The position numbers were made by a program, and so were the translations under genes. The notes beneath the pieces were generated by a model that made no database searches, was not told where the DNA came from, and saw nothing but the letters and a program-made list of their open reading frames with translations. Below are positions 9,532-27,073 of a stretch of DNA of 28,965 bases, in pieces (within the stretch, counting starts at the first letter, position 1; every line of letters begins with the position of its first letter). The stretch is from a virus: positions 1 through 28,965 of IMG/VR virus record IMGVR_UViG_3300013307_000043; one strand, written 5' to 3'.

Positions 9532-9626
9532 AGACTTGAGTTAGACAAACCAACGCCGAGATATGTTGCTCAACGGGTGGTTGTTTGTCTAAGCCTATGT
9601 CTCTGAGGTCTAAGCTATGGTCTACA
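9532..9626 (-). repeat. 95-bp element, copy B (inverted relative to copy A)
   Basis: Read on the - strand this is a 95-bp unit matching 26979-27073. The 40-bp block at 9587-9626 differs at 4 positions from copy A. The 15-bp block AGACTTGAGTTAGAC (9532-9546, + strand) is identical. The 40-bp centre (9547-9586) has the same length but only about 16 of 40 matches. It holds TTAGAC-type hexamers at 9587-9592, 9599-9604, 9608-9613 and 9620-9625, and a 10-bp perfect inverted repeat TTAGACAAAC (9541-9550 with 9583-9592). It is non-coding, between the resolvase and the HNH-derived gene. Operator cluster, origin or recombination site are all possible. Confidence 0.85.
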
Positions 9627-9631
9627 AGCCA

Positions 9632-9955
9632 TCAGCTCTCGTTGAGTTGTGCTCGTAGGGACGAGGCTTCTGCCTCCAGCTCTTGCAGACGTGATTCGAT
9701 CTGCGCCAGACGCTTACGCTTCGAGGACGTTCGCTTCTTGATGACCTCGATGCCCTTCTCGTCGTACGGGTTGTTCTTAGCTTCCTTTGACCTGAACCTC
9801 ACTTGGTCAGTCGCAGGATCGATCTGACGACCGAGTACCTTCTCGATGGTCAACCAGTGCGTAAGCACCCAACCCCTGTCAGTTGTCTTCGTGTAGTGGT
9901 AGCCATTCTTCGCTACACGAGTCGCACCGACTTCTGCGGTCGATCCTCTAGCCAT
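9632..9955 (-). CDS. HNH-derived protein with lost catalytic histidines and coiled coil
   Basis: 107 residues, ATG overlapping the polymerase stop (TAATG). The segment NGYHYTKTTDRGWVLTHWL then EKVLGRQIDPATDQVRF follows the pattern of phage HNH endonucleases (GY..leHrlvmEkhLGRpL...VHHidGdk.dNrpeNL). Where the family has VHHIDGD this protein has VRFRSKE, so the catalytic His is missing. It is followed by NNPYDEKGIEVI, the usual Asn-helix. Residues ~75-105 form a Lys/Arg then Leu/Glu-rich coiled coil (RLQELEAEASSLRAQL). I infer a DNA-binding protein that has lost cutting activity, in the polymerase operon. The family reading is by pattern only. Confidence 0.55.
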   Translation of the reverse strand: MARGSTAEVGATRVAKNGYHYTKTTDRGWVLTHWLTIEKVLGRQIDPATDQVRFRSKEAKNNPYDEKGIEVIKKRTSSKRKRLAQIESRLQELEAEASSLRAQLNES

Positions 9956-12351
9956 TACACCTCACCCCAGTTCTTTCCGATCTTGACGTCTACCTTGAAT
10001 GGGACATAGTCCCCGATTAGCTCCTCGGCCGATTCCACCATGCGACGATCCAACAGAGCGGAAACGTCGCTAGCCATGTCGTGAGGACAATCCACCAGGA
10101 TCGAGTCATGAACAATGTTCCTGACATAAGCCCCGCTCCCGCGCAGATCCCTGCGGACGCGAACCATTGCTCGAAGACAAATGTCCGAACTGGTCGACTG
10201 CGGGAGGAATGCCATCGCCTCATTCTTGATTGCCTTCCAGTTGTCATCCGTGATCAGATGGAACCGACGATGACGTCCGAACGGTGTGATGAGGTCTTCC
10301 CCTCGCCACACTCTAGCCTGGACGTCCTTCTGCCAAGCAACGATTGATGGGATCGTTTCGAAGAACCTGTTCTTGACTGCACGTGCTTCCTCGACAGGGT
10401 ACTTGTACTCCGATGCAATGCTGTACTCCGTTCGTCCGTATCCAAGGCCATACACGAAGGCCTTCACACGAATACGGATCTCCTTCCACTCTTCTTCCGT
10501 AATGCTTCCCCCGAGGACAAGCTCCTTCGTCTGACCAGGGTAGAGCTGAGGCGTCAGCTCGTCGAAGAAGTCTCGTTCGGGATGCATGAAAAGGTCACGG
10601 AAGTATTCATCTCCGGCGAGCCAGGTAAGTACTCGAAGTTCAGCCTGAGCGAAGTCAGCCTGTACAAAGACGTTCTCAGGCTGAGCAGGTACGAAAAGTC
10701 CTCGGATGGCAGACTCTCGAGGAACGTTCTGGAGATTGGGATTGCGACATGCAAGTCTTCCTGTAGTGGTCCCATGGATACGGAATGTTGGATAGACTCG
10801 ACCGCGATACATACGCTTCGCTGTTCCCTTAACGTATGTTCCAAACATCTTCTGCTCGCGTCGATGGATGAGCAGTGTCTCGCAGAACTGGTAGAGCGGC
10901 CCGTCGTCTTGCTTTCGTGCCGTAAGAAGGTCTTGAACCTTATGAAGTGTCTCTTCATTGGTAGAATCCACTCTGCACCCGAGATGCGCTAGCGCCGCCT
11001 TGACTTGCTGGGGCGATCTGGGGTTGATGGGGTTGTAGTTCGTCTTGACAAGGATCTGATCAATCTCCTCTTCGATTCGCCCGAGCGACTCTTTGTACTT
11101 CTCAGTAAGCGTTGCGATGTACGATCTGTCCACCGCAATACCGTTGAGCTCCACGAACATGAGTTCGTTGGATGCCTCCACCAGAAAGTCATGGAGTGCT
11201 CGGAGGTTCGATGCATCCAGTCGTCTGCTGAACAGTCGGTACAACGAATATGTACTAGATGCGTCGTACGCGTTGTACCGATATAGGATGTCACGAGGAA
11301 TGACCCCATAACCGTCACCGGGTCCGACATATTTCTTGATCTCCTCGTCGTATTGTGGAGCGCCGAGATACTCCACTGCCATCTGCTTCAGTCCGTGGAT
11401 ACCTGGTCGTTCGTCGAGGCAGTAGTGGGCGAGCATGGTGTCGAAGTAGAGCTCGAGGGTACCAAGGACAGGATTAAGTCCTGCAAGATCGAACTTCCCA
11501 TTCTGGGCAATGAGTCGGCTAGCTCTGAAGGCGTCAGCCATAGCGTCTCGAACGTCATCGTCTTGACACGCACGTTCACCAATAACCAGCGCTCGCCCCT
11601 CTTCCCAGGCGAGGCCAACACAGAGGAGACCGTATCGATTAGGATGGTCGTGGCTGGTGTCCTTTTCAATGTCGACCTCAATATCGACAACAAGGTCTCC
11701 CGTTCGCTGTTCCAAGAACCTGAGGCGCTCGATGGCATCCACAGGATCGTCAACGACTTCGTACTGCGGCTCACTCCAATCGACATGGTCTATGACCACC
11801 TTTCCAATGTCCGCGACAAGAGACGGAAACATATCCGACTGACGAAGGCACGCGGCTGGATGAACCGTTGGTATGATCCTGACACCTGCCAGCTCTGGAT
11901 ACGGGGAGGTTCTCCCGGGACCCACTCGGAGCTTAGTAACGCCCTCAACTCCAAGAAGACCGAACGCCGCCGAGTTTCCCAACGCCACAACAGTTGAGGC
12001 ACCTCGAACGGTGAGCTCGCTAAGTAGGCGACCTCGACAAGCTGTAATGGCAGCCTTTGTCGGAGTCGACCCATCTGCAGGCCTACAGAGTGTGGCATTG
12101 GTTAGGAACACCTCTTCTCGTTCGATCCCGTACTGCTTGCTGACCGTGTTGAGGAGCTTACCGCTTGGGCCAATAAACGGTTTGCCCTCTCGAGCCTCTT
12201 GGACACCAGGTGCTTCGCCGACGAATGCAATGTCTGCATGTTCTGGCCCATCGCTCGGAACGAACTTGCCGCCAACGCGGAGCGGACACTCATCACACTT
12301 AGCTCCGAGCGACTGGGCGTGTTCTTTGTCATAGGTCATTCCTCCACCCAT
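9955..12351 (-). CDS. Uracil-DNA glycosylase (family 4-like) / DNA polymerase I fusion
   Basis: 798 residues. Residues 1-190 match family 4 UDG: CDEC (Cys19, Cys22), GEAPG then GKPFIGPSGKLLN, LCRP (Cys89), ACRG (Cys105) and HPAACLR (164-170); the four cysteines would hold an Fe-S cluster. A 3'-5' exonuclease domain follows (VVDIEVDI Asp223/Glu225, NGKFDLAGL, RYNAYDASSTY). The polymerase domain has motif A DFAQAELRVL (Asp566), motif B from Arg626 through Lys630 to YGLGYG, and motif C VHDS (748-750). Tyr634 sits where E. coli Pol I has Phe762 and T7 has Tyr526; the usual HDE reads HDS. The start could instead be the ATG at 12339, which overlaps the dpdA-like stop (ATGA). It is the likely replicative polymerase. 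Confidence 0.88.
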   Translation of the reverse strand: MGGGMTYDKEHAQSLGAKCDECPLRVGGKFVPSDGPEHADIAFVGEAPGVQEAREGKPFIGPSGKLLNTVSKQYGIEREEVFLTNATLCRPADGSTPTKAAITACRGRLLSELTVRGASTVVALGNSAAFGLLGVEGVTKLRVGPGRTSPYPELAGVRIIPTVHPAACLRQSDMFPSLVADIGKVVIDHVDWSEPQYEVVDDPVDAIERLRFLEQRTGDLVVDIEVDIEKDTSHDHPNRYGLLCVGLAWEEGRALVIGERACQDDDVRDAMADAFRASRLIAQNGKFDLAGLNPVLGTLELYFDTMLAHYCLDERPGIHGLKQMAVEYLGAPQYDEEIKKYVGPGDGYGVIPRDILYRYNAYDASSTYSLYRLFSRRLDASNLRALHDFLVEASNELMFVELNGIAVDRSYIATLTEKYKESLGRIEEEIDQILVKTNYNPINPRSPQQVKAALAHLGCRVDSTNEETLHKVQDLLTARKQDDGPLYQFCETLLIHRREQKMFGTYVKGTAKRMYRGRVYPTFRIHGTTTGRLACRNPNLQNVPRESAIRGLFVPAQPENVFVQADFAQAELRVLTWLAGDEYFRDLFMHPERDFFDELTPQLYPGQTKELVLGGSITEEEWKEIRIRVKAFVYGLGYGRTEYSIASEYKYPVEEARAVKNRFFETIPSIVAWQKDVQARVWRGEDLITPFGRHRRFHLITDDNWKAIKNEAMAFLPQSTSSDICLRAMVRVRRDLRGSGAYVRNIVHDSILVDCPHDMASDVSALLDRRMVESAEELIGDYVPFKVDVKIGKNWGEV

Positions 12352-13088
12352 TCCTCGAGCTCTCGAACGTTCCTACCGATCATCTCGGCCTGACTGAAGT
12401 CGATGAACCTACGATTGAAATAGTTGTCCGGTCGAAGCAGTCCCGACGAGCCATCCAACGGCATGCCGTACCAGGCTGCTGTGTAGGGCATCGACGTGTC
12501 GACGCTTCGTACGAGTGAACGAACAGACGGAGCAAGGTCTCGCAGCTCGATCGGGTAGTGAGTCGATGCACCGAGAAAATGGATGTCCTTGAGATGAGCT
12601 CCGTACGATGCGTACAGGGTCTTGACGATCGTAGCACGAGCCCAAGGATCGCCAAGTGTCTTGATGGCGTGCCGAGGGATAGCAATCGTCTCGATCTCAT
12701 CTCTGTCATGAGCCCACGCAGCACTGTGAATGAAGTCATCCATCATCTGACCCTGTGCGACGAACATCAGACGTTGATCAGGAGAGGCCCAATGCATGAG
12801 GAAGTCCTCTGCCTCTTCCATCGTCTGGCGAGCATCTCCGATGGTGTCAGGAATGACAAGCTCGTCAGGCCTGATCATACGTGAGAGGTCGAACAGCTCA
12901 TCGTTCCTAACCTGCTGTCCTTCAGCGGCACCGTTGTCGAGGATGACGAACTTGTCCAGAGACTTCGCGTAGCGCTCATACGTTGCAAGATAGTAGGCAT
13001 CGTTGCAGAGCTGTGGCAGCATGAGCTGGTACTGCAGAGTTGCCGTATCCTCCAGAAGAGGAATGGGAGGGATGAGAGCCAGCTTCAC
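12336..13088 (-). CDS. dpdA: DpdA-like DNA 7-deazaguanine transglycosylase
   Basis: 250 residues with a GTG start overlapping the preceding stop (GTGA). The motif order follows the tRNA-guanine transglycosylase fold: VILDNGAAEGQ (Asp51, compare DSGGFQ), VIPDTIGD (Asp81), FVAQGQ (compare VQGG), IAIPRH, IHFLGAST and SVDTSMPYTAAWYG (Asp197, compare FDxVxPTR). The tRNA enzyme's C-terminal zinc Cys cluster is absent, and the protein is shorter than bacterial Tgt (about 370-380 residues), as is usual for phage DpdA proteins. Known DpdA enzymes swap guanine in DNA for preQ0 or a derivative and protect phage DNA from restriction. The preQ0 genes lie 0.8-3.7 kb upstream. Catalytic role of Asp197 is inferred by alignment of motifs. 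Confidence 0.8.
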   Translation of the reverse strand: MKLALIPPIPLLEDTATLQYQLMLPQLCNDAYYLATYERYAKSLDKFVILDNGAAEGQQVRNDELFDLSRMIRPDELVIPDTIGDARQTMEEAEDFLMHWASPDQRLMFVAQGQMMDDFIHSAAWAHDRDEIETIAIPRHAIKTLGDPWARATIVKTLYASYGAHLKDIHFLGASTHYPIELRDLAPSVRSLVRSVDTSMPYTAAWYGMPLDGSSGLLRPDNYFNRRFIDFSQAEMIGRNVRELEEWVEE

Positions 13089-13204
13089 TTCTTGACGCCC
13101 TTCTCCTTGTTGTCGACCTTGCGAACCCTACGTGCCTGCTTGGGTGTCAGGTCCTTCTTGCCCGACTGCTTCTTGTAGCTCGCGATGCGCTTATCGTTCT
13201 TCAC
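13085..13204 (-). CDS. 39-residue basic protein, unknown
   Basis: A GTG start overlaps the upstream stop (GTGA at 13204-13201) and its own TGA overlaps the GTG of the dpdA-like gene (13088-13085). Two tight couplings make translation likely. The product is very basic (about 15 Lys/Arg of 39), with IASYKKQSGKKDLTPKQARR in the middle and the end DNKEKGVKK, so nucleic-acid binding is plausible. The LTPKQARR phrase resembles short basic proteins seen in other actinobacterial phages. It sits between the MazG-like pair and dpdA, so a helper role in DNA modification is possible but unproven. Confidence 0.6.
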   Translation of the reverse strand: MKNDKRIASYKKQSGKKDLTPKQARRVRKVDNKEKGVKK

Positions 13205-13521
13205 TTCTGCCACCCCACGTCCTTGGTTCCCTTGAACGCCTCGACACCGATCGTCAGGTTGTCCTGCTCGTCCGGAGTCAGCTTCTCGTTCAGCAACTGG
13301 TCGAGGTGGTTCTGGAGGATCATCAGCTTGACTGACTGGTAGCGACAGTAGTTGGCTGTGTCGGCGAGCTCCTCCAACATCATCCGAATGACGTCGTTGC
13401 CGAGGTACGTAGCGACACCGTACTTCTCTTCTCCGACGTCGTGACGCAACTGACAGAGCATGTCGAACTGCTCACTGAAGGCAGTGACCATCGCTGCCAG
13501 CTCTTCAGCCTCCGTTGCCAT
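13201..13521 (-). CDS. MazG-like all-helical protein (tentative)
   Basis: 106 residues from the ATG at 13521, which has GAGAGGG about 10 bases upstream; a longer frame to 13575 would overlap the previous gene further. The protein is predicted helical. The phrase MMLEELADTANY (Glu50, Glu51, Asp54) resembles the second acidic motif (ELxD) of MazG-type nucleotide pyrophosphohydrolases, and EEKYGVATYLGND before it could supply other acidic ligands. The first ExxE motif is not as clear as in the next gene upstream. It may be a divergent second subunit or paralogue. It overlaps its neighbours at both ends in the operon that leads into dpdA. Confidence 0.55.
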   Translation of the reverse strand: MATEAEELAAMVTAFSEQFDMLCQLRHDVGEEKYGVATYLGNDVIRMMLEELADTANYCRYQSVKLMILQNHLDQLLNEKLTPDEQDNLTIGVEAFKGTKDVGWQK

Positions 13522-13873
13522 TACGCTGTGCCCTCTCTGCGCGCTGTTCGGCGAAGCGCTTGTTGTTCTCCGCACGCTTCATCTGATAGGTCTTGCCCAG
13601 GTCGATCTGAAGGAGCCCTGCCAGGTTCAACAGGTAGATGAAGACGTCTGTCAGCTCCATCGCCATGTCGTAGCGAACGGCAGGAGTCCTAATGTCCAAG
13701 CTCCCCCGTTCGACCTTCTTCACGATGTTGCAGAACTCTCCGACCTCGCCAGCCATCGCGAGCGCGTGGTGAGGGATGCTGTAGACTACGGCACTGTCGC
13801 CGAAGTACTTCTCGCTGTCCTCCACGCACTGCTTGGCCAACTCCTCCAGGGTCTTTACTTCTCTCGTTGACAT
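13505..13873 (-). CDS. MazG-like nucleotide pyrophosphohydrolase
   Basis: 122 residues. The MazG core is readable: AMAGEVGEFCNIVKK (Glu43 and Glu46, the ExxE motif), MELTDVFIYLLNLA (Glu73 and Asp76, the ExxD motif), then LQIDLGKTYQMK and AENNKRF, the usual Lys-Asn-Arg tail. The family hydrolyses (d)NTPs to monophosphates using magnesium. It is the first gene after a promoter with perfect TTGACA and TACAAT boxes, and the -10 box ends one base before the ATG, so the message may be leaderless or the true start slightly internal. Possible roles are pool cleaning before replication or altering guanine nucleotide supply for base modification. Confidence 0.75.
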   Translation of the reverse strand: MSTREVKTLEELAKQCVEDSEKYFGDSAVVYSIPHHALAMAGEVGEFCNIVKKVERGSLDIRTPAVRYDMAMELTDVFIYLLNLAGLLQIDLGKTYQMKRAENNKRFAEQRAERAQRNGNGG

Positions 13874-13874
13874 T

Positions 13875-13904
13875 ATTGTATCACAGATCCTCTCGGAATG
13901 TCAA
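13875..13904 (-). promoter_or_regulatory. Sigma70-like promoter of the dpdA-polymerase unit
   Basis: On the - strand TTGACA (13904-13899) and TACAAT (13880-13875) are separated by 18 bases, close to the bacterial consensus. It lies in the 61-base gap between folE and the MazG-like gene. A start of transcription 6-8 bases after the -10 box would fall inside the annotated ATG region, which hints at a leaderless message. Confidence 0.7.
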
Positions 13905-13934
13905 GATGTCTATTTAAGTTTCCGCAAAGATAGG

Positions 13935-14558
13935 TCACTTGCCGATGATCGACATGAACTCTGCCTTCGCCGTGCGGCTGTGATCCGCGAACACCCCCCT
14001 CATGGTGCTCGTCGTCGTCTTGGTACCCGGCGTCTGGACACCGCGAATGGTCATGCACATGTGCTCTGCCTCCATCACGACACCGACACCCAGAGGGCTC
14101 AGTCTCGCCTCCAGGTCGTCAGCAATGTCGTGTGTCAACTTCTCTTGCACCTGAAGAGCTTTCGAGTGGTACCGAACCGTTCGTGCCAGCTTGCTCAGTC
14201 CGACCATCTTGTGGATGGGAATGTAGGCAATGTGTGCGACACCGATGAATGGAACGATGTGATGGTTGCAGAGACTGACGAACGGAATGTCCTGCATCAC
14301 GATCATGTCCTCCATGCCGTCTGCATCGAACGTCGTGAACTCGAAGTCTTCCGGAGTGGTCATCTCCTTAAGCATCCTGGCAAACCTCTTCGGCGTGTTG
14401 GCTCCATGAGGCGAGTCAGCATTCAGTCCTGTGGTCTGTTCAAGCAATACCTGCGCGGCTTCCTCGGCGGAAAGCTCAGCCATCAATGGACGAAGCTGAC
14501 CCTTCACTCGGTCGATTGCGTCCTTGATGTCCGCATTGATGTTAGGCGTCTGTGCCAT
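13935..14558 (-). CDS. folE: GTP cyclohydrolase I
   Basis: 207 residues from the ATG at 14558, which overlaps the queE stop (TAATG); the longer frame to 14642 runs into queE and is rejected. Family motifs are strong: SLCNHHIVPFIGVAHIAYIP (Cys97, His100 zinc ligands), GLSKLARTV, ALQVQEKLT and AEHMCM with IRGVQ (Cys168, third ligand), then TTTSTMRGVF. The enzyme converts GTP to dihydroneopterin triphosphate, the first step toward 7-deazaguanines. Its length is near the usual ~190-220 residues and no key residue is lost. It is the last gene of the preQ0 run before the 13875 promoter. In this setting it most likely serves base modification, not folate synthesis. Confidence 0.93.
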   Translation of the reverse strand: MAQTPNINADIKDAIDRVKGQLRPLMAELSAEEAAQVLLEQTTGLNADSPHGANTPKRFARMLKEMTTPEDFEFTTFDADGMEDMIVMQDIPFVSLCNHHIVPFIGVAHIAYIPIHKMVGLSKLARTVRYHSKALQVQEKLTHDIADDLEARLSPLGVGVVMEAEHMCMTIRGVQTPGTKTTTSTMRGVFADHSRTAKAEFMSIIGK

Positions 14559-15259
14559 TACCGTCCTCTTTCGTTCGCGGGCCAGATGTAGTTGTGCAGT
14601 TGAACGTTGAGCTTCCAGGGCAACATGTTCTGCATTACCCAAGCTGCGAGCTGTGCGTCAGTAACGTCACCGTTCCAGACCTTGCCGTAGTACCAATGGA
14701 TGGCACGACGGGTCTTCTCTGGCAACATAGACCACAGGGACGCAGCTGTGTCAAAGTCCTCCTCGTCCTTGCAGACGAACTTGACTGAGTGAAACAGAAT
14801 CGACTCGTCCAGCTGCTTGATGTTCTGATAGCGAACTTCGTTGTACGGGTCTTCTCCTGAGCCCGGAAGCTTCCAGTCCATGATCATGGAGATGTTGTCC
14901 ACAGCCCACTCTGGATACAAGAAGGTCCCGTTGGTGAAGGCTTCGATGCCGTAGCCCTTACCTTGAAGCATATCCGTCAGCTGTTCCAGGTTGGCATTGT
15001 TCTGAAGGAATGGTTCTCCACCAGTGAACGTAACCATCTGGGCACCAGCAAGCTTGGCTGTACGGTCGACCTGGTCAACGATCTCGGCTGGAGACAGGAC
15101 CATCCATTCCTTACGGAAGGCTGGATCGATCGCATGCTGAGTGTCGCATGGCCAGCCAGGGCAACGAAGGTTGCAACCTCCGAACCTCAGGAAGACGGTC
15201 GTCTCTCCGACGCGAGGTCCTTCACCTTGCACGCTGGCATAGATCTCCGAGACCCTCAC
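14558..15259 (-). CDS. queE: 7-carboxy-7-deazaguanine synthase, radical SAM
   Basis: 233 residues from the GTG at 15259, chosen because GGAGG lies 6 bases upstream and because it overlaps the stop of the preceding small gene (GTGA). The N-terminus VSEIYASVQGEG and VFLRFGGCNLRC are diagnostic of QueE. The cluster motif reads C29-x3-C33-x4-C38 (CNLRCPGWPCDT) where most QueE proteins have CX3CX2C. VTFTGGEPFLQ (the GGE SAM-binding motif), TNGT and VKFVCKDEED follow. It converts 6-carboxytetrahydropterin to 7-carboxy-7-deazaguanine using SAM and magnesium. The stop overlaps folE (TAATG). Confidence 0.92.
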   Translation of the reverse strand: MRVSEIYASVQGEGPRVGETTVFLRFGGCNLRCPGWPCDTQHAIDPAFRKEWMVLSPAEIVDQVDRTAKLAGAQMVTFTGGEPFLQNNANLEQLTDMLQGKGYGIEAFTNGTFLYPEWAVDNISMIMDWKLPGSGEDPYNEVRYQNIKQLDESILFHSVKFVCKDEEDFDTAASLWSMLPEKTRRAIHWYYGKVWNGDVTDAQLAAWVMQNMLPWKLNVQLHNYIWPANERGR

Positions 15260-15420
15260 TGGAGTCCTCCAGCCAAGGCGAGCTCTGCGAAGAACTGTTG
15301 TGCATTCGAGCTCCAACCGCCTGAAGGAGTCCAGCTGTGCAGCTCATCAAACAGGTCGCGCATCTCCTGAGCTGTGCCCTGAAGAGTTACAGTCGCTTCG
15401 TTCTGGATCTTGGTTCTCAT
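15256..15420 (-). CDS. 54-residue protein coupled to queE, unknown
   Basis: The ATG at 15420 overlaps the stop of the gene before (ATGA) and its TGA overlaps the queE GTG (GTGA). Its last codons contain the GGAGG that serves queE. The product starts MRTKIQNEATVTLQG, continues with an acidic helix TAQEMRDLFDELHSW and ends QQFFAELALAGGLQ. There is no Cys cluster or membrane segment. It is not a recognised family. The tight two-sided coupling inside the preQ0 genes argues for co-expression with QueE. Confidence 0.65.
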   Translation of the reverse strand: MRTKIQNEATVTLQGTAQEMRDLFDELHSWTPSGGWSSNAQQFFAELALAGGLQ

Positions 15421-15575
15421 CCGTCCAACCAATCTAGTACATGTTGTGCTACGTCTTCGACAGCAACGCGAACGTCACCTGCGAAGTGTGGAATGTTCGG
15501 AGGGTCGATGTGCGTGATTGCGTCTGGCACATCTTCCGGTTCACACTCAAGCGAGACGACTAGAATCGCCTTCAC
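15417..15575 (-). CDS. 52-residue protein between queD and the queE pair, unknown
   Basis: The GTG at 15575 overlaps the queD stop (GTGA), and its TGA overlaps the next ATG (ATGA). The product reads MKAILVVSLECEPEDVPDA, then THIDPPNIPHFAGD, then a helix VAVEDVAQHVLDWLD. The start looks like a short beta strand followed by helices, suggesting a compact alpha/beta domain. It has no known motif. As with the neighbouring small gene, its meaning lies in its position inside the preQ0 operon. Confidence 0.65.
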   Translation of the reverse strand: MKAILVVSLECEPEDVPDAITHIDPPNIPHFAGDVRVAVEDVAQHVLDWLDG

Positions 15576-16102
15576 TTGTCGACCTCCTTGGTCGGAGAGA
15601 ACTGGAAGCGAGCCATGTTGACTGACGTCTCCCAGACAGTCACATCGATGCTATAGATGTTCCTAGGCATTGCAGTGATCAGGTCGTTCGCGACCATCTC
15701 CTCATACATGTCGTGAGCGATCCACTTGGCGAGGTTCTCCGTCGTCGGGTCTCCCATTGTCGCTTGCAGACCAGGCAAGTACTGCTTCGAACCTTCATCG
15801 ACATTGACTCGCTCACCTGGTTCGAAGTCATCGACATCGAACATGTAGATGGGTCGAGCATATGGGTCAGCCACGTTGAGGAGCAGACGGTGGTCGTACG
15901 TCTCATCGAGATGTCCGCGGAACACCTTCTTCAGGGCTCCGTACTCGATCCCTCCGAGGATGCCCTTGTCGTTCAGTCTGCCCTGAAGCTCCATCGTGAC
16001 CCACATCGAGTGGCCATGGATCTGTTCGCACTTGCCAGGGAGCTCGAACAGTCTATGTGCGACCTCGATGTTGTGCTTGACCGCAATGGTCGTCATTGAC
16101 AT
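15572..16102 (-). CDS. queD: 6-carboxy-5,6,7,8-tetrahydropterin synthase
   Basis: 176 residues, ATG overlapping the queC stop (TGATG). PTPS/QueD motifs: VAHRLF (His16), LPGKCEQIHGHSMWV (Cys25 catalytic, His29 and His31 completing the zinc site), DETYDHRLLL (Asp70, His71 of the catalytic relay), DPTTENLAKWI and VWETS (Glu158, which binds the pterin). The enzyme turns dihydroneopterin triphosphate into carboxytetrahydropterin, the second step of the preQ0 route. It is longer than typical bacterial QueD (~120 residues) because of an insert at about residues 78-112 (DPYARPIYMFDVDD and after). Confidence 0.92.
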   Translation of the reverse strand: MSMTTIAVKHNIEVAHRLFELPGKCEQIHGHSMWVTMELQGRLNDKGILGGIEYGALKKVFRGHLDETYDHRLLLNVADPYARPIYMFDVDDFEPGERVNVDEGSKQYLPGLQATMGDPTTENLAKWIAHDMYEEMVANDLITAMPRNIYSIDVTVWETSVNMARFQFSPTKEVDK

Positions 16103-16818
16103 CAGACAGTCTCCCTCTTGAGTGCCTCGCGCCAGAACTGGTCGTCCTCGTACGGAGTCGGGTCAGCGTTGCCGGTCGATGCGATGGCCTCCAGACGCTC
16201 GACACACGTACCGCACTTGCCGCAGTGGATGTCTCCACCCTTGTAGCAGCTCCAGGTACGAGCGATGTCGACGTTGAGGTCGAAGGCACGCTGAGCGATC
16301 CAGTTCTTGTCCTTGTCGATGAAGGGTGTGTCGATGAAGAAGCCTGGCCTGATGAAACCCTCGTTGCCCAGGTTGATGGCTACATCAGTAGCGCCGATGA
16401 ACGCTGGACGACAGTCGGGATAGATGAAGTGGTCACCCGCGTGAACGCCTGTGCAGACCTTCTCGGCACCGATCGACACGGCGTAGCCTGCTGCGATGGA
16501 CAGCATGATCATGTTGCGATTGGGAACGACCGTCTGCTTCATCGACTCTTCCCCGTAGTGTCCTTCGGGGACATCGGTGTCGGTGACGAGCGAGCTACCT
16601 GACTCGGCGAACAGCTCCGTGAAGTCGAGGTCGACGATCTGCAAGTCGTTCCCGGAGAAGCCTGCCTGGTATGCAGCGAACTGCAACTCCTTCTTGTGGC
16701 GCTGTCCGTAGTCGAAGCTGATCGGGTACGCATCCCAACCCTGAGCGATGACGTGATGCAAGAGGGTCGTGCTGTCGAGCCCTCCGGACAGAACTACTAC
16801 TGCCTTACTGTCTGACAT
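16102..16818 (-). CDS. queC: 7-cyano-7-deazaguanine (preQ0) synthase
   Basis: 238 residues, ATG preceded by GGAGAA. The ATP pyrophosphatase loop SGGLDS (11-16), SFDYGQRH, VPNRNMIML, GVHAGDH with YPDCRP, and the zinc cluster WSCYKGGDIHCGKCGTC (Cys191, 199, 202, 205) are all intact. QueC uses two ATP and ammonia to turn 7-carboxy-7-deazaguanine into the nitrile preQ0. No glutamine amidotransferase domain is fused, unlike the Gat-QueC seen in some phages that make archaeosine-type DNA. Nothing resembling QueF, which would reduce preQ0 to preQ1, is seen in the window. It lies 8 bases after the primase gene. Confidence 0.95.
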   Translation of the reverse strand: MSDSKAVVVLSGGLDSTTLLHHVIAQGWDAYPISFDYGQRHKKELQFAAYQAGFSGNDLQIVDLDFTELFAESGSSLVTDTDVPEGHYGEESMKQTVVPNRNMIMLSIAAGYAVSIGAEKVCTGVHAGDHFIYPDCRPAFIGATDVAINLGNEGFIRPGFFIDTPFIDKDKNWIAQRAFDLNVDIARTWSCYKGGDIHCGKCGTCVERLEAIASTGNADPTPYEDDQFWREALKRETV

Positions 16819-16826
16819 TGTTTCTC

Positions 16827-19040
16827 CTATACCTTCGCTAGTGCTGGAATGACTGTTGGAAACAAAACCTCTGCCTTGCCGTTCTTCTGTCGAATGATCA
16901 AGTTGCGCTGCTCAAGTGTTTCGAACAGCTGTGTTGCATCTCTGGCGCTGAGGTGATATGCCTGCATAAGATACGATCGAGTCACGCCAGGTCTACGCTT
17001 GATGGCTCCGAGGATGTTGTCCAGCTGACGTTCAGCCTGACCCTTACCAACGTTAGCCATTACTTCCTTGACGAACATTCGCCAGTTCTCTCCGTACACA
17101 GCTGCACGAATGATGTCCTCCACCTCGACGATGATCGTCTCGTTGCGTTGTCTAGTCGCAGCCAAAAGAACGGCAGCCTTCAGGATGGACTTGGCTAGAC
17201 GATCAAACGTCGGAGTCATGATGTCAGCACGATCAGAACGAATACCTGAGTCAAGCATCTGCTGTTCCAGTTGGTTGTATCGGAACCAAGCGTCTGGTGT
17301 CAGCTTCGCATTGACCTTGACCTTCTCGTCGATCGTGATCTTGGTACCCTTGACAGTCATCTGGATCGTACGGTTGTAGAAGCTGTACATCTCTTCTAGT
17401 TCCGTACGAATGACTTCGCGATTGCTGTCGGTAACGTCTGTAGGAGGACCAAGAGGTCGTACTCTGTTGACGTCTGACTCGGCGGTGATGAAGACGAACC
17501 TAGGCATGAAGCCGGAGCTGACCTGTTCGAAGCTGAGAAGGCTGGTGATCTTGTCCTTGATACCACCTGCGAAGATGATCAGGCATGGATCTCGAACCTC
17601 GACTGACTCTTTCCGCAACACACGCTTCTGCATCTTGCCGTCGTACAGCTTAGTGAACAGCTCGGGCATGCCTGCGTAGTAGTCCTTCTTGGTGATCATC
17701 TCGAGCAGACCGGAGAACTCATCTCGCAGGAACACACTGGGCTTGCCTGCTCTGGTCGACAGCGATGTCAGAAGACCTTCGATCGATCCATCAGTCGCCA
17801 TGAGGATGTCATCGTTCACTTCCATCGCTAGGTCCATCGCGATGTCCATTGCTGTCGACTTCCTCGTCAGAGTCGTGTCGGCCAGAATCATGAACCAGAG
17901 ATTCGGCTTGATCGTCCCAAACGAAGTGGGCAACTGGACAGCTCCTGCAAGAAGCGACGATAGTACAGTGAAAGCTCCAGCCTGGTGGTACTGCGGCGCA
18001 GCGTCTCCCAATGACTTGGCCCACTCGATGTACCTCTCAATGAACGTGTCTTCGCCTTCGATGATCGCCTTTCTTTCCTCGTCGGAAACAAGTGGCTCAT
18101 CGAAGAGGTCTTTCAGGACTGCTGCGTCGGTGCTCTGCTGGTGCTTGAGTTCAGCCCTACAGACATCCTTCCACAGTTGAACAAGCGGTGCTCCACGCTT
18201 CTCGTACTTATTGCAAGCCGCATTCATCACGATCGACATGACCTGCTGAGCGTTGAAGCCTGCCTCGAACAGAAGCATCTCCAACTTCCATAGAGGCTCA
18301 GACCAGGAAGCATCCTCAGGAAGAGGTTCCTGATACAGTCTCCAGATAGTCGGGTTCAGCTTGAGACGTTCCTTCTGCAACAGCTCTTCGCCGTCAATGA
18401 ACTCAGTCGGCATAGGAACATCGATGTGCTGGAAGCCCTGCACAGTGTCATAGAACTCATCGAAGTCAGTCAGGCTGTACTTGACCTTGTCGATCTCGAC
18501 GATCTGTACTGTCGGAGTCGTGGCGTACTTGTAGTTGTACGTAAAGGGTAGCCGCAAGAGCTGCGTCAGATCCCAACCACTACGGTCTGCACCGTTGTCT
18601 GCATGCCCATAGGCAATGCGCTGACTAATGTTCTCTGCATCGTCTGGGTCGACTTCTTCATCGAACATCCAGAGACCCTGAAAGCGTCCAGGCGAGGACT
18701 CAATCAGGATCGACGGCTTCATGAACAGTTCATCGGGCTGACACGTGTCTAGGTCAGACCAGGCGCAAGGAGTGTAGGAGACGTTCTCCTTCTTCCTGCG
18801 TCGCGTGTCGAAGAGATGGGGACAAAACCAGACGTTGTGTCCCTGATACACTTTGTTGATCAGGTCCAACGCCTGCGGGATTTCGTTTGGGTACTTGAAG
18901 AACTGTTCCCGAAACTTCTTCGGATCTCTGTCGCGAGTTCCGTATGCGATGCAGAAGTAACCAGTCCCGTTGCCGAACAGAAGCTGGAGGAACGTGCTCC
19001 TACGCTTATCTGTTTCGGCCGAGATGTCAACTACTTCCAC
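16827..19040 (-). CDS. Primase-polymerase / helicase (AEP plus DUF3987-like ATPase)
   Basis: 737 residues with a GTG start 6 bases after GGAAAGG. Residues ~90-175 look like an archaeo-eukaryotic-type primase: WSDLDTC (Asp96, Asp98), ILIESSPGRFQGLW and LLRLPFTYNYK. The usual His after SSPGR-aromatic is Gln121 here. Residues ~340-620 resemble the DUF3987 helicase module, with a Walker A-like ADTTLTRKST (RKS replacing GKS) near 387-396 and a Walker B-like VFLRDEFSGLL (Asp440, Glu441). The last ~75 residues look like a winged helix (RRPGVTRSYLMQAYHLSARD). I infer that it primes and unwinds DNA for the fused polymerase. A strong hairpin precedes it. Confidence 0.75.
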   Translation of the reverse strand: MEVVDISAETDKRRSTFLQLLFGNGTGYFCIAYGTRDRDPKKFREQFFKYPNEIPQALDLINKVYQGHNVWFCPHLFDTRRRKKENVSYTPCAWSDLDTCQPDELFMKPSILIESSPGRFQGLWMFDEEVDPDDAENISQRIAYGHADNGADRSGWDLTQLLRLPFTYNYKYATTPTVQIVEIDKVKYSLTDFDEFYDTVQGFQHIDVPMPTEFIDGEELLQKERLKLNPTIWRLYQEPLPEDASWSEPLWKLEMLLFEAGFNAQQVMSIVMNAACNKYEKRGAPLVQLWKDVCRAELKHQQSTDAAVLKDLFDEPLVSDEERKAIIEGEDTFIERYIEWAKSLGDAAPQYHQAGAFTVLSSLLAGAVQLPTSFGTIKPNLWFMILADTTLTRKSTAMDIAMDLAMEVNDDILMATDGSIEGLLTSLSTRAGKPSVFLRDEFSGLLEMITKKDYYAGMPELFTKLYDGKMQKRVLRKESVEVRDPCLIIFAGGIKDKITSLLSFEQVSSGFMPRFVFITAESDVNRVRPLGPPTDVTDSNREVIRTELEEMYSFYNRTIQMTVKGTKITIDEKVKVNAKLTPDAWFRYNQLEQQMLDSGIRSDRADIMTPTFDRLAKSILKAAVLLAATRQRNETIIVEVEDIIRAAVYGENWRMFVKEVMANVGKGQAERQLDNILGAIKRRPGVTRSYLMQAYHLSARDATQLFETLEQRNLIIRQKNGKAEVLFPTVIPALAKV

Positions 19041-22273: not shown

Positions 22274-22614
22274 CAGACAGGCTCGAGAGGGTTGTTGGGT
22301 ACGTCCTCGGCGTCTGGAAGGAGGTTCACACCTTGACCCACACAGGCACGCATGCGCTGTTCGTCCGACGCCAGAGAGGTTGGCCTGCCACATCCGACAC
22401 AGACCCACCAACCGTACTTGGCACCTCTGAACCAGCTACTGAAGCGCTTACCCGTTCGGCAGCCACCTGACCCAGAGCTCTCACAGAACATGGTCGGCTT
22501 GGCAAAGAGGCCTTCGACCTTCCAAGACCCTTCGACATGTTCAAGATTGTCATGCTGGAGGAAAGAATCGGCGTCAGCGTTGTCCTCGAAGGAAAGAACC
22601 ACGTACCTAGCCAT
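22273..22614 (-). CDS. 113-residue zinc-ribbon-like protein, unknown
   Basis: The ATG at 22614 overlaps the preceding gene's stop by 8 bases. The N-terminus is MARYVVLSFEDNADADSFL, a ferredoxin-like strand-helix start. The middle has MFCESSGSGGCRTGKRFSSW and WWVCVGCGRP, giving paired Cys that suggest one zinc ribbon. A short C-terminal tail ends PDAEDVPNNPLEPV. Similar small proteins are frequent in phage early regions, but the role is unknown. Confidence 0.6.
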   Translation of the reverse strand: MARYVVLSFEDNADADSFLQHDNLEHVEGSWKVEGLFAKPTMFCESSGSGGCRTGKRFSSWFRGAKYGWWVCVGCGRPTSLASDEQRMRACVGQGVNLLPDAEDVPNNPLEPV

Positions 22615-22822
22615 TCTTCCTCAGTCCCCTATCGACAAGATGACTCAAGAGCCGTTCGCAGAACTTGAGCTGTGCTGTATTGGACAGGAGCTCGACCTGG
22701 TTCTTGCCTGGCCTTTGTAGGGTCACGACAAGGTCACTACTGACCTGTTCTCCGATTGTCATGATCATGTCGCCGAGCTCGCCCCATGTAACAGGAGTGT
22801 CCCTCTTCAACTGGTCATCCAT
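22607..22822 (-). CDS. 71-residue protein, unknown
   Basis: The ATG at 22822 has GGAGTG about 8 bases upstream and overlaps the previous gene's end. The product is amphipathic and helical (TWGELGDMIMTIGEQVSSD, then NTAQLKFCERLLSHLVDR) with no motif. It overlaps the following gene by 8 bases, consistent with a coupled operon. Confidence 0.55.
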   Translation of the reverse strand: MDDQLKRDTPVTWGELGDMIMTIGEQVSSDLVVTLQRPGKNQVELLSNTAQLKFCERLLSHLVDRGLRKNG

Positions 22823-23282
22823 ACTGGATCACTCCATCCACCCTCGTAGCACCGCAGCCCTCTTCGCCGGTCTTGTTGGTGCAGCAGTGTTCGATCTTCG
22901 GCTCTTGTGGCTCCTCGATCGGTCCCATCTCGTCGACAGGCACTGCACCGAAGGCACGCATGGTCATCTCGATCGGGTTCAGATTGATCTGCTTCTCGGA
23001 CTCGACCCAGAAGTGATCGTGCTGCTTCTGGAACTCGATGTACTTGTGCGCCCAGTCGTCAGAGTTCATGACGACTTCCATCGTTGAGAGACCCGCGAAC
23101 GAGTAGTACAGCCGCTTGGTACGGCCATCCTCATCGTCCTTGACCTCGATCACGATGTAGGCATCGTCCACGTGGAAGCGCTCGACACGATCGAACCCGA
23201 ACTTGAGACGTGTGCGCTGGTACGGACCGACTGGCTTGAGGAGTTCCAGAACGATGTACCCGTCTTGCTTAGGCCTCTCCAT
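22815..23282 (-). CDS. 155-residue protein with C-terminal Cys motif, unknown
   Basis: The start is the ATG at 23282, preceded by GGAGCAGG; the longer frame to 23378 would overlap the upstream gene. The product begins MERPKQDGYIVLELLKPVG and is beta-rich through FDRVERFHVDDAYIVIEVKD and RLYYSFAGL. A helix follows (DWAHKYIEFQKQHDHFW). The C-terminal region has EHCCTNKTGEEGCGATR, three Cys that may bind metal. No family is recognised. Overlaps at both ends place it in the SNF2 transcription unit. Confidence 0.6.
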   Translation of the reverse strand: MERPKQDGYIVLELLKPVGPYQRTRLKFGFDRVERFHVDDAYIVIEVKDDEDGRTKRLYYSFAGLSTMEVVMNSDDWAHKYIEFQKQHDHFWVESEKQINLNPIEMTMRAFGAVPVDEMGPIEEPQEPKIEHCCTNKTGEEGCGATRVDGVIQYG

Positions 23283-23454
23283 CGGCCTGCTCCTGTCCTG
23301 AGTAGATGTAGCACTTCGAGTTGCACATGGTTCCGTGTCGGTGGTAGTGGATGGCAGTTGCTTCTGGGAATCGTGCATCCAATGCTCGCGCCTCGGCCTG
23401 CTTCTTGACGACAGCCTCGTCCACGATCCCTGGAAGTACGTAGGCGTTATGCAT
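23269..23454 (-). CDS. 61-residue protein with His/Cys motif, unknown
   Basis: The start is the ATG at 23454, 8 bases inside the previous gene and preceded by GGCAGGAAGG. The product has a helix (VDEAVVKKQAEARALDARF) followed by AIHYHRHGTMCNSKCYIY, where His and two Cys could form a small metal site. It overlaps the next gene by 14 bases. Function unknown. Confidence 0.55.
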   Translation of the reverse strand: MHNAYVLPGIVDEAVVKKQAEARALDARFPEATAIHYHRHGTMCNSKCYIYSGQEQADGEA

Positions 23455-23719
23455 CCTTCCTGCCTCCTGTGGTCTTGTCAGGCCTGGGGCGGCGTGAGAT
23501 CCCAGGACCACGACGCTCTGCCTGAATGTCCAGGAGGAAGTTGTCACTAAGCCTCTGAGCTTCAGCAGGATCGTCCAAGAACGGGTCTCGGGACGTCTGC
23601 CACTCGACCCACTCTTCGAAACTGACTAGTTCACCACCGCCGATGTCGAACACCTGCCTTGCCATGAAACTGAGGTGTGCTTCGTGTGCGTAGTCGATCT
23701 CATTCGTCTGTGTCGTCAT
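23447..23719 (-). CDS. 90-residue acidic-to-basic protein, unknown
   Basis: The ATG at 23719 lies 20 bases inside the end of the SNF2 gene. The first 70 residues are acidic and helical (YAHEAHLSFMARQVFD, LVSFEEWVEWQTSRDP, AEAQRLSDNFLLDIQAE); the last 20 are strongly basic (RRGPGISRRPRPDKTTGGRK). Such a tail often touches nucleic acid. No family is recognised. It may act with the helicase it is coupled to. Confidence 0.55.
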   Translation of the reverse strand: MTTQTNEIDYAHEAHLSFMARQVFDIGGGELVSFEEWVEWQTSRDPFLDDPAEAQRLSDNFLLDIQAERRGPGISRRPRPDKTTGGRKDA

Positions 23720-25370
23720 TGAACAGCTCCTCTATTCCCTTCATCTCTGCTTCCAGGTCTTTGATAAGTAGTTCGGGGTCAACCTTGTCACCGAGTAGCA
23801 TCTGCAACCAACGTGCCTTCGTCCTGATCTTGGATGCCTTGCCAAGGTCGACTGTGTGCCGTGCCATCAGGTCGATGACTTCGACGGCTTCCGTTTGACC
23901 GATACGGTGCAACCGATCCTCAGCTTGTCCGTTGACTGCTGGCGACCATACGCGATCGATAAAGACCACTGTCGACGCTGCAGTGAGGGTGAGACCGACA
24001 CCGCCAGCCGCAATGGTCCCAGCAAACACTCGTATCCTCTTGGCCTGGAAGTCTTCGACAGCCTTGGCACGATCCGCATCGTTGATTGCGCCCGTGAGGA
24101 GACCGTAGGTGATTCCCTTCTTAGCCAGGCGCTGTGCCAGTAGATCAATGACTGATCTGAACTGACTGAAGATGACGATCTGTTCCTCATTCCTGTCCTC
24201 CAAGATGTCCAAGATCGTGTCCAGCTTACTGGATGGGTCTGTCACGTCGTACTGGTAAACCCTCTTCGCGGCGCCAGACATTTCGATCTCGTCGTCTGTC
24301 ATGCCTGCTTCGAGCCAGCGGTTCCGGAACTCAGCTCGCTGTGCGTTCGACATCGTCTTACTTGGGTAGTTCCACTTCCACTTGAAGACGTGGTTGCCAT
24401 TCGCATCGAGTCGTGGAATGACGTAGCCACAGGCGAACTGCTGCAAGCGAACGAGTTGCGAGACGGCCGCGTTGGCGATGATGGGATCTTCCCGATCGAG
24501 TTCGTCCTTGTGCTGATCGACCCAAGCGATCATTGTCTTACGCATCTGATCGTAGGCACGACGTTGCTTGGGATCGAGATCGACCCACACACGTGTGTAG
24601 TACTTGTTAGGCAGATCGGGGAGGACGTCTTCCTTCCGACGTCGGGTGTACCAAGGTTCGATCTCCTTGTGTAGGTTACCGATCGTCTCTTCGTTGGGTC
24701 CGACAAACTTCCTATAGCCCAACGGTTCACCTGTGTTGGGGTCGTTCGTGATCTGTTCGACGTAGACGTTGACGAAGTTCCAGAACGAGGTGTAGTAGTT
24801 GGGCCAGAGCCAGTGAAGGATCGCCCACAGATCTTGAGGTGCGTTGTCTGCAGGCGTGCCGCTCATGGCGGTCTTGTACTGTGTCTTGAGCTTCCACAGT
24901 GCGATCGTTACCTGAGCCTTACGGTTCTTCGCACGATGAATCTCGTCACCGATAACGTGCAGCCAAGGCACCTTCCGAAGCTCAGGCATCCGAGACAGTG
25001 CATCCCAGTGCATGATGAAGTACCCACCCTGATTGGGATTGAGTGCCATGCGAATGAACTGGTCTCGCTTCTTGGCATCGATGACTGTCACATCTAGGTC
25101 TGTGAGCTCCATGCAGTGGCTGTCCCAGACGGAAATGACGCTCTTGGGGCAGAGGATGAGGGTCTTGGCTCTCGCGTTCAGAGGTCCGTTGAGTACTTGA
25201 CCTTCTTGTATTGCAGTCGGAGTGATGTTTTGCCGCCGCATCTCAAGGTCCAGTGCGATCCCCTCGTACGTCTTACCTGTACCAGGGTCGTTCGCAATCA
25301 GACGTGACTTGACCTTCTTGAGCTTGTCAACGTCCTCTTGCTGGAACTTGAAGAGACTGATCCTGTTAGC
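23700..25370 (-). CDS. SNF2-family DNA helicase/translocase
   Basis: 556 residues from the GTG at 25370, which overlaps the preceding stop; the frame continues upstream to 25424 but only inside that gene. Motifs: I NDPGTGKT (residues 28-35), Ia LILCPKSVISVW, II GDEIH (Asp143-His146), III MSGTPADN (171-174), and in the second RecA lobe IVIFSQFRSVIDLLA, YGLLTGA, FAGTIAAGGVGLTLTAAS and VI AEDRLHRIGQTEAVEV. SNF2 enzymes track along double-stranded DNA using ATP. Phage members are usually placed with replication and recombination genes, as here. There is no fused nuclease domain. The C-terminus is acidic (LFNDDTDE). Confidence 0.88.
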   Translation of the reverse strand, partial: ANRISLFKFQQEDVDKLKKVKSRLIANDPGTGKTYEGIALDLEMRRQNITPTAIQEGQVLNGPLNARAKTLILCPKSVISVWDSHCMELTDLDVTVIDAKKRDQFIRMALNPNQGGYFIMHWDALSRMPELRKVPWLHVIGDEIHRAKNRKAQVTIALWKLKTQYKTAMSGTPADNAPQDLWAILHWLWPNYYTSFWNFVNVYVEQITNDPNTGEPLGYRKFVGPNEETIGNLHKEIEPWYTRRRKEDVLPDLPNKYYTRVWVDLDPKQRRAYDQMRKTMIAWVDQHKDELDREDPIIANAAVSQLVRLQQFACGYVIPRLDANGNHVFKWKWNYPSKTMSNAQRAEFRNRWLEAGMTDDEIEMSGAAKRVYQYDVTDPSSKLDTILDILEDRNEEQIVIFSQFRSVIDLLAQRLAKKGITYGLLTGAINDADRAKAVEDFQAKRIRVFAGTIAAGGVGLTLTAASTVVFIDRVWSPAVNGQAEDRLHRIGQTEAVEVIDLMARHTVDLGKASKIRTKARWLQMLLGDKVDPELLIKDLEAEMKGIEELFNDDTDE

Positions 25371-25590
25371 CACTGTACTGACACTCCGATGAGCGAACGA
25401 ATCTCGGCGGACCTTCACCCTCACTTGCCAGCTGGATGATCATCTCGAAAGGGGCCTCGCGGTCGTCTCGAACGATCTTTCCCTTGGTACGATGGTCTGC
25501 GTCGTAGTGAAAGATGACCTCGACTTCCTTCCCGATGAGGCCAGACTGCTTGGGAAACTTGTCGTGTGTGATGTTCGGGTGGTTACCCAT
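25366..25590 (-). CDS. 74-residue small beta-barrel-like protein, unknown
   Basis: The ATG at 25590 overlaps the preceding stop (TGATG) and its own stop overlaps the SNF2 start. The product has LIGKEVEVIFHYDADHRTKG then KIVRDDREAPFEMIIQL and PPRFVRSSECQYS, an alternation of strands that resembles SH3-like barrels found in small phage proteins. No function can be named. Confidence 0.6.
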   Translation of the reverse strand: MGNHPNITHDKFPKQSGLIGKEVEVIFHYDADHRTKGKIVRDDREAPFEMIIQLASEGEGPPRFVRSSECQYSG

Positions 25591-25859
25591 CAGCTACTCC
25601 CGTTCAGAAGTGGTTGGTCCTTCAGCGTCTGACCTGTTCTTGAGCAGTTCCACAGAACGTGCCAGACTCCGCTTCGCTTCTCGTACGTAAGCTTCAGCAA
25701 CCTCGATCGGTATCCATGACGCGTGTTGCACGGCGGACACCAAAGCCCCAACTCCGGCTGTGTCGCCTTGCTTGTTCGAGGTCGCCATGTCTCTCCGATG
25801 TGCTTCAGTCGCCTACGGTACTTCTTCCCCAGACCCGAGATGGGTGTCAGTTCGCTCAA
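25590..25859 (-). CDS. 89-residue zinc-binding-like protein, unknown
   Basis: A TTG start overlaps the preceding stop (TTGA) and the stop overlaps the next ATG (TGATG). These two couplings favour this frame over a competing 64-residue frame at 25594-25788. The product has a basic N-terminus (GLGKKYRRRLKHIGETWRPR) and then LWCPPCNTRHGYRSRL and WHVLWNCSRTGQ; CxxC with later His and Cys could form a zinc finger. Nucleic-acid binding is possible. Confidence is limited by the rare start codon. Confidence 0.6.
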   Translation of the reverse strand: MSELTPISGLGKKYRRRLKHIGETWRPRTSKATQPELGLWCPPCNTRHGYRSRLLKLTYEKRSGVWHVLWNCSRTGQTLKDQPLLNGSS

Positions 25860-26263
25860 CGACCCATCACCCTGTCTGCCAGGTCTCGAACGAGCTCGCG
25901 ACGATACTGGTCACGAGTCATCCCTACCATGTGCTGGAAGATTTCGTCCGACTCTTCTTGGTCGGTGATCGTCCGTTCGTCGACGACGACGTGGACGTAG
26001 CTCCTCATGTCGTAGCAGTCCGACTTGTTGATGTGAACGTGCGTGCGCCATTGTCCTGCACACTCGTCGATCAGTCGAACTTCGACAGTGCGATCGTTCT
26101 TGGCCACAGCACCATAGATCGGATGACCCACGAGCACGGGTGCGAGACGGTCTCCGATCCGAAGGTCCTCAACCAGGATCTTCCGGACGAAGAGGATCTT
26201 CTTGCTACCCTTCGCCTTCTTGGAAGCCCTGCTCGACCGCTTAATCGGTGCTGATGTGCTCAC
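25856..26263 (-). CDS. 135-residue protein, basic N-terminus, unknown
   Basis: The start is the GTG at 26263, 7 bases after AAGGGG; the longer frame to 26374 overlaps the HTH gene out of phase. The first 22 residues are basic (APIKRSSRASKKAKGSKK). The centre is beta-rich (LVEDLRIGDRLAPVLVGHP, RTVEVRLIDECAG, VHINKSDCYDMRSYVHVVVD). The end is helical (MTRDQYRRELVRDLADRV). No family is recognised. Its stop overlaps the next gene's TTG. Confidence 0.6.
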   Translation of the reverse strand: MSTSAPIKRSSRASKKAKGSKKILFVRKILVEDLRIGDRLAPVLVGHPIYGAVAKNDRTVEVRLIDECAGQWRTHVHINKSDCYDMRSYVHVVVDERTITDQEESDEIFQHMVGMTRDQYRRELVRDLADRVMGR

Positions 26264-26495
26264 TGTGAATCCCCTTCTTGAAGTACTGATCGGACTTGTC
26301 GATGTCGATGACACTTCGGCCACACAGACATTGTTCCTTGTCGATGTGGCCTTCCCTGATGTGGTAGTACACAAGCTGTGGGCTAATGCCTCTTAGCTTA
26401 CCGTACTCCCTTGGGGAAAGCTTGGTAGCACCTTCGAGCTCATGCAGACGCATCTGATCGAACAGCTCGTCGGTGTTCTGAATCTCTTCAGCCAT
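26241..26495 (-). CDS. Helix-turn-helix DNA-binding protein
   Basis: 84 residues. After a helical N-terminus (TDELFDQMRLHELEG), residues ~25-50 read KLSPREYGKLRGISPQLVYY followed by HIREGHI, a typical MerR/excisionase-type helix-turn-helix. Then CLCGRSVIDIDKSDQYF forms the wing. It is the second gene after the 26910 promoter and so a candidate regulator of this arm or of the neighbouring 95-bp element. It overlaps the next gene by 23 bases. Binding site unknown. Confidence 0.7.
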   Translation of the reverse strand: MAEEIQNTDELFDQMRLHELEGATKLSPREYGKLRGISPQLVYYHIREGHIDKEQCLCGRSVIDIDKSDQYFKKGIHSEHISTD

Positions 26496-26522
26496 GAAGA
26501 CTCCTTCCGAGTCCTGAGAGGG

Positions 26523-26885
26523 CTACTTTCGAACTACGCTTACCTTCCGGCGAAGTCCGTCGATAGTTTCGTACGATGTTGCATCTCGCCACTTACGTCC
26601 TGCGTAACCACTTGTGTGAACGAAGTAGCCAAGATCGAGGAACGGAACGAGCTGACCACCGCGCATGAGTGCCTTCAAGTAGTTGTCCACTCGAATGCAG
26701 ACGTCGCAGCTGTCAGTGTTGACTCGATAGCCGAACTTGTGCTTCTTGTGTCCAACGTTGAAGTTGTCGAAGTAAGACTGAAGCGCGTCCAGCTTCTTGT
26801 AGGTGCTGAGTCCCTTCAGAGACTTCCGGAACTCCTGCCACTCGTCGTCACTGACTGCGGACTTGATCTGTTCTCGAGTTGCCAC
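26523..26885 (-). CDS. 120-residue protein, first gene of the 26910 unit, unknown
   Basis: GTG start at 26885 with AGAGGAG about 8 bases upstream. The product is hydrophilic: helices ISDDEWQEFRKSL-like (SDDEWQEFRKSLKGLSTYKK), then HKKHKFGYRVNTDSCDVCIR (CxxC), VDNYLKALMRGGQL and a Tyr/Gly-rich stretch, ending RRKVSVVRK. It has no family I can name. As the first gene after a strong promoter and beside copy A of the 95-bp element, it is probably expressed early. Confidence 0.65.
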   Translation of the reverse strand: MATREQIKSAVSDDEWQEFRKSLKGLSTYKKLDALQSYFDNFNVGHKKHKFGYRVNTDSCDVCIRVDNYLKALMRGGQLVPFLDLGYFVHTSGYAGRKWRDATSYETIDGLRRKVSVVRK

Positions 26886-26909
26886 GCTCTGCTCCTCTCT
26901 TATACATCA

Positions 26910-26939
26910 AGTATATTGCAGACCTCGTTGACCTTGCAA
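26910..26939 (-). promoter_or_regulatory. Sigma70-like promoter next to 95-bp element A
   Basis: On the - strand TTGCAA (26939-26934) and TATACT (26915-26910) are 18 bases apart, with the GTG start 25 bases further on. The promoter lies 40 bases downstream (leftward) of element A, close enough for proteins bound there to affect it. Confidence 0.7.
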
Positions 26940-26978
26940 GGGGTACATCGCGGTGCTTTTGAGATGTGCTCAGGTCGA

Positions 26979-27073
26979 TGTAGACCATAGGTTAGACGTT
27001 AGAGACCTAGGCTTAGACGAGTTAACCCTATCACAGCAAGGTCTTTGTGTTGTCGTAGGTCTAACTCAAGTCT
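26979..27073 (+). repeat. 95-bp element, copy A
   Basis: A 95-bp unit whose inverted partner is at 9532-9626. The 40-bp block 26979-27018 has TTAGAC-type hexamers at 26980, 26992, 27001 and 27013, forming two 21-bp direct repeats. The centre 27019-27058 is diverged from copy B but has the same length. The 15-bp block 27059-27073 (GTCTAACTCAAGTCT) is identical to copy B. The last 13 bases lie inside the end of the 27061 gene and encode its final Asp-Leu-Ser-stop. TTAGAC at 27013 and GTCTAA at 27059 form an inverted pair around the centre. Confidence 0.85.

Follow-up and report, generated by a model that had tools for sequence, protein, structure and literature searches.

We examined why a 95-bp sequence stands twice, in opposite orientations, at the two ends of a 17-kb gene arm in an uncultivated phage. 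The DNA analysed (the window) is an entire IMG/VR record of 28,965 bp, which begins inside a tape-measure gene. The 95-bp sequence is conserved, belongs to a broadly known kind of regulatory element and has an unusual, well-defined geometry; its most likely role is to bind a virus-made protein that would switch blocks of genes, rather than to mark an invertible arm.

The element in the window and in uncultivated relatives

Ungapped alignment of 9532-9626 (- strand) with 26979-27073 (+ strand) gave identity at 67 of 95 positions. The match put forward in the original prediction was reproduced in the outer blocks, with 36/40 positions identical in the first and 15/15 in the last; the middle 40 bp agreed at chance level (16/40), so that the conserved part is two blocks 40 bp apart (Table 1). 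No other inverted repeat in the window is as strong as the 40-bp block, which is 90% complementary over 40 nt compared with 70-76% for the runner-up pairs of 30-44 nt. TTAGAC/GTCTAA occurs seven times in the 28,965 bp, and all seven belong to the two elements, lying inside them or at their margins. Block A of copy 1 holds four AGAC sites (GTAGAC, TTAGAC, AGAGAC and TTAGAC, at spacings of 12, 9 and 12 bp), and the block B sites of this copy run in the opposite direction. Copy 1 sits in the gap preceding the RuvC-like gene, with the likely RuvC ATG at 9461; an alternative TTG start at 9548 would fall inside the copy. Copy 2 precedes the gene 26523-26885, with a sigma-70-like promoter in between, and its block B overlaps the final codons of the gene 27061-27423.

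Table 1. Positions of the element, its flanking motifs and nearby genes in the window.
Feature	Position	Strand	Remarks
RuvC-like resolvase gene	8958..9461	-	PHROG 1981; tblastn matches annotated RuvC-like resolvase
GACCACAGG at copy 1	9478..9486	-	Shortly before likely RuvC ATG
Copy 1, block B	9530..9546	-	Two + strand TTAGAC (9530, 9541), 11 bp apart
Copy 1, variable gap between blocks	9547..9586	.	16/40 identity to copy 2 gap
Copy 1, block A	9587..9626	-	36/40 identical to 26979-27018; architecture recurs upstream of RuvC in relatives
HTH26	26241..26495	-	Small BldC/Xis-like winged helix; model pLDDT 79
Sigma-70-like promoter TTGCAA-18-TATACT	26910..26939	-	Between copy 2 and operon starting at 26885
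Copy 2, block A	26979..27018	+	36/40 identical to copy 1 block A
Copy 2, variable gap	27019..27058	.	16/40 identity to copy 1 gap
Copy 2, block B	27059..27073	+	15/15 identical to copy 1
GACCACAGG beside copy 2	27097..27105	+	Strand opposite to surrounding genes
HTH28	28055..28501	-	Predicted winged helix and C-terminal coiled coil; model pLDDT 90

Megablast against a collection of sequenced phages returned no match to the window, and the best match to its polymerase in that collection was 34% identical. Relatives in IMG/VR were reached by alignment of the protein encoded at 12336-13088 and its distant phage homologues; polymerase and RuvC alignments added about a hundred further contigs, and some two dozen relative contigs were examined as sequence pieces. 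Scans with the SNF2 helicase alone or the polymerase alone retrieved no relatives. The 40-bp-block pattern had a single match in viral contigs; it fell within the coding sequence of an unrelated phage and was discarded as chance. The uncultivated contigs reached through the 12336-13088 protein share the replication and 7-deazaguanine genes, in the same order. A scan of genome contigs found a single polymerase match (44%), located in a bacterial bin, and identified no host; in Curtobacterium phage Yappy, a distant relative, no comparable inverted element was seen. The family is widespread and uncultivated, and the element can serve to mark how regulation is laid out in phages that have no isolate in the collection searched.

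Absence of the copies from relatives had been named in the original prediction as an outcome that would speak against it, and the opposite was found: the element recurs in related uncultivated phage contigs, about 25 of them, where it occupies up to three fixed places. One is before RuvC, another is before the HTH26 operon, between the genes for HTH28 and HTH26, and the third is before tail-chaperone/tape-measure genes, the tail-assembly chaperone being named by position and look and not by family match. The two matching copies are real, but they are not a private pair, since relatives carry up to three. The tail-side place lies outside this window, whose sequence starts within the tape-measure gene, so that a third copy may be present beyond that end. 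In one relative (G002, 7555-7645) the element is directly upstream of a tape-measure-like gene and not of the tail chaperone. A phased TTAGAC pair was found in the 700 nt before RuvC in 34 of 69 contigs, compared with 14 of 2,981 random windows from the same loci.

Across these contigs the element is built of TTAGAC sites that are spaced by one or two helical turns and grouped in two blocks, with GTTAGACTT as the extended site consensus. Adjacent TTAGAC pairs 8-75 bp apart numbered 81 against 5 expected, the highest count among all 180 permuted hexamers (each strand counted). The spacings fell into classes with means of 10.7, 20.8, 47.0, 57.5 and 65.8 bp, and the two blocks were separated by about 47, 57.5 or 66 bp, i.e., about 4.5, 5.5 or 6.3 turns. 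With intra- and inter-block spacings split after the data were seen, the sites inside a block kept to whole-turn spacing (R=0.80 at 10.5 bp, phase 0.02 turn) and sites in different blocks lay near half turns (R=0.77, phase 0.45 turn), with p values for phasing that are too optimistic because pairs were treated as independent while some contigs are related. Pooled over all spacings, the 10.5-bp period was weak (R=0.21), an effect of the half-turn offset between intra- and inter-block spacings. The direction of the TTAGAC sites flips within and between elements and is not conserved.

Most RuvC-side elements are followed by the motif GACCACAGG, which elsewhere in the family often stands just 5' of a start codon. 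It was found 78 times in 1.008 Mb of pieces, compared with 11.6 (sd 6.9, maximum 32) for 150 permuted 9-mers, a 6.7-fold enrichment in the phage family; 14 copies had a plausible start within 25 nt, compared with at most 5 for 150 permuted motifs. One relative (G003) has about a dozen copies outside phased elements, several of them just before start codons, which indicates that the motif is more widespread than the element. Downstream of the element GACCACAGG would be a separate start-associated sequence.

Candidate binding proteins and alternative functions

Inverted copies at both ends of a 17-kb arm could be recombination sites for its inversion, as the original prediction had suggested. 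The copies do flank the arm in inverted order in the window and five relatives: with the richer block scored as block A, the RuvC-side and HTH26-side copies were opposite in 6 of 8 scored genomes (the window, G002, G011, G016, G018 and G023). They were direct in the remaining two (G003 and G012), so that the inverted order is common but not fixed, and RuvC-side copies run mostly with the RuvC gene. Every relative in which both arms were seen resembles the window in having its RuvC end turned towards the tail genes. Searches of 16 relatives for tyrosine and serine recombinases (Phage_integrase, PF00589; Resolvase, PF00239) gave no match while the controls were positive, and the outer blocks provide no uninterrupted crossover sequence. 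Conserved opposite sites, a dedicated recombinase and both orientations of the segment would characterise an invertible segment, and none of these was found among the relatives examined. With the orientation of the gene arm relative to the structural arm constant and no integrase or resolvase found in 16 relatives, inversion of the arm is the least probable of the functions that we weighed. It is hardly more credible that the transcript leading into RuvC carries a structured leader RNA of riboswitch-like or attenuator type; the TTAGAC and GTCTAA of copy 1 are able to pair as a stem, but the folding z-scores were only -1.0 to -2.1, the predicted stems differ between the two copies, an Rfam search gave no match, site direction flips among relatives, and copy 2 is antisense to its genes.

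Two proteins, HTH28 and HTH26, were considered as binders; neither had a match in the phage collection or a convincing Pfam match. The best fold matches of HTH28 were N-domains of RepA_N initiators (4pql, 5kbj and 4pt7; probability 1.00, E 2e-3 to 4e-3, TM-scores only 0.39-0.51), followed by MarR regulators. HTH26 best matched BldC-DNA complexes and the Xis of mycobacteriophage Pukovnik, and on fold grounds it was the first candidate, until it was displaced when co-occurrence favoured HTH28. Among 28 further contigs, 15 had a strong HTH28, and phased pairs were present in 10 of these (over the stretch searched, the other 5 gave no strict phased pair); none of the 13 contigs lacking a strong HTH28 had such a pair (p=2.5e-4). 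The corresponding co-occurrence with HTH26 was not significant (p=0.12). Moreover, the element is present in six contigs where HTH26 was undetectable, four from this set (G047, G049, G052 and G053) together with G022 and G028. On the strength of this co-occurrence and of the elements in contigs without detectable HTH26, HTH28 is the better candidate binder, although shared ancestry could yield the same co-occurrence.

These six contigs and the lack of significant co-occurrence also weigh against the proposal that the blocks are operators of HTH26, which would polymerise on one-turn direct repeats and regulate its own operon and two others. The fold of HTH26 is BldC-like, in most relatives an element stands immediately before HTH26, and Streptomyces BldC protects evenly spaced one-turn tracts on variable numbers of short direct repeats about one helical turn apart (PMC5859096). 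The BldC repeat is AATTnnnnC every 9 bp, whereas the site here is GTTAGACTT at a mean spacing of 10.7 bp, and BldC operators keep a single direction per site and have no distant second block, whereas direction flips here. We regard control by HTH26 as improbable. Slightly better placed, though still doubtful, is a role in replication, in which the TTAGAC sites would be iterons bound by HTH28 as a RepA_N-type initiator and replication would start at one or more copies. RepA_N initiators bind repeated iterons (PMC7145576, PMC5703833), HTH28 weakly resembles the N-terminal winged helix of the initiator, RepA_N N-domains being its top fold matches, and the replication genes are flanked by two copies. 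Against this, MarR regulators match HTH28 almost as well at such low TM-scores, and RepA_N iterons are semi-palindromic and converge on a central poly-A tract that is not evident at the element, which occurs as up to three separate near-start copies per genome, one of them in the structural arm. The adjacent start-associated motif and sigma-70 promoter suggest expression control instead. The paired origins offered in the original prediction are therefore weakened by the third copy and by the motif associated with start codons, yet they still stand as the main rival to an operator.

A probable operator for a phage-encoded regulator

The reading that we favour, and consider probable on the patterns in the DNA, is that the 95-bp sequences are two copies of an operator used across the phage family by a predicted phage-encoded regulator. 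The TTAGAC sites at whole helical turns inside each block would be sites for one oligomeric regulator, most likely HTH28, which would fill both blocks cooperatively and probably join them by bending or looping the gap. It would thereby co-control the HTH26/replication operon, the RuvC gene and, in relatives, the tail-chaperone/tape-measure operon. The suggestion that one regulator binds at both ends thus gains support from the helically phased repeats kept at the same genes and from the co-occurring regulator, with binding itself predicted. Several observations count against an operator: the flips in site direction fit poorly with head-to-tail binding, the 5 contigs with a strong HTH28 gave no strict phased pair, the excess of promoters given below is modest, and the GACCACAGG beside copy 2 is directed away from the operon. 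The fuller proposal, in which HTH28 is an undescribed type of regulator that loops the phased TTAGAC blocks and co-ordinates early, recombination and tail operons, is tentative, and we think it possible rather than probable.

Promoter predictions bear on the sign of this putative regulation. Sigma-70-like promoters were found near 6 of 14 HTH26-side elements, a modest excess over the 1.9 expected by shuffling, compared with 0/13 near RuvC-side elements (1.7 expected) and 0/8 near tail-side elements (1.2 expected); a sigma-70 promoter inside the inter-block gap was searched for and not found consistently. This suggests that the element modulates an ordinary promoter at the HTH26 side and supports a non-consensus one at the other two places. 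Beside the sigma-70 promoter of the HTH26 operon the bound protein may repress or modulate transcription, and at the RuvC and tail genes, where such a promoter was not seen, it may activate expression.

Known start-associated repeats and other genes of the arm

The closest known kind is the start-associated sequences (SAS/ESAS) of actinobacteriophages. In cluster K mycobacteriophages, SAS is a short asymmetric conserved motif before start codons, and ESAS adds, directly before the SAS, imperfect inverted repeats of 17 bp that are separated by a spacer of 4-13 bp; they have been described since 2011, with no established function (PMC3203893). Both systems place a conserved motif beside the starts of several genes, with some copies after inverted repeats with a variable spacer, and both are conserved by gene family. 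They differ in that the cluster K SAS is the 13-bp GGGATAGGAGCCC and the motif here is GACCACAGG; the 17-bp repeats there are replaced here by hexamer sites phased by the helical turn; the spacer of 4-13 bp compares with a gap of about 40-60 bp here, in blocks lying 45-66 bp apart; and here up to three elements occur per genome, the structural arm included. In Microbacterium phages, the cluster EC repeat TAGaCTCTaGGTgTaAgC shares TAGAC and precedes starts, and cluster EF has an SAS/ESAS pair (PMC7302621), but these are single asymmetric repeats or one GTAGAG core, and the two-block phased layout is not described there. The statement that no phage element with this layout had been described is thus partly right: the SAS/ESAS repeats (PMC3203893, PMC7302621) are of the same kind, and the sequence, spacing and number of sites differ. 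With its strict geometry, its three defined target operons and a candidate protein to bind it, the element lends itself to direct testing.

Several other genes of the arm were assigned. A family A DNA polymerase with a fused N-terminal domain of the uracil-DNA-glycosylase superfamily (PF03167, PF00476) is encoded at 9955-12351. GTP cyclohydrolase I, QueE-like, QueD-like and QueC genes of the 7-deazaguanine pathway lie within 12336-16818, and this pathway may modify the phage DNA. The protein of 12336-13088, conserved beside these genes, matched no family model, and from its position we would guess at the role of DpdA. The gene at 16827-19040 encodes a primase/helicase whose match to RepB_primase is marginal and which also has a DUF3987 domain.
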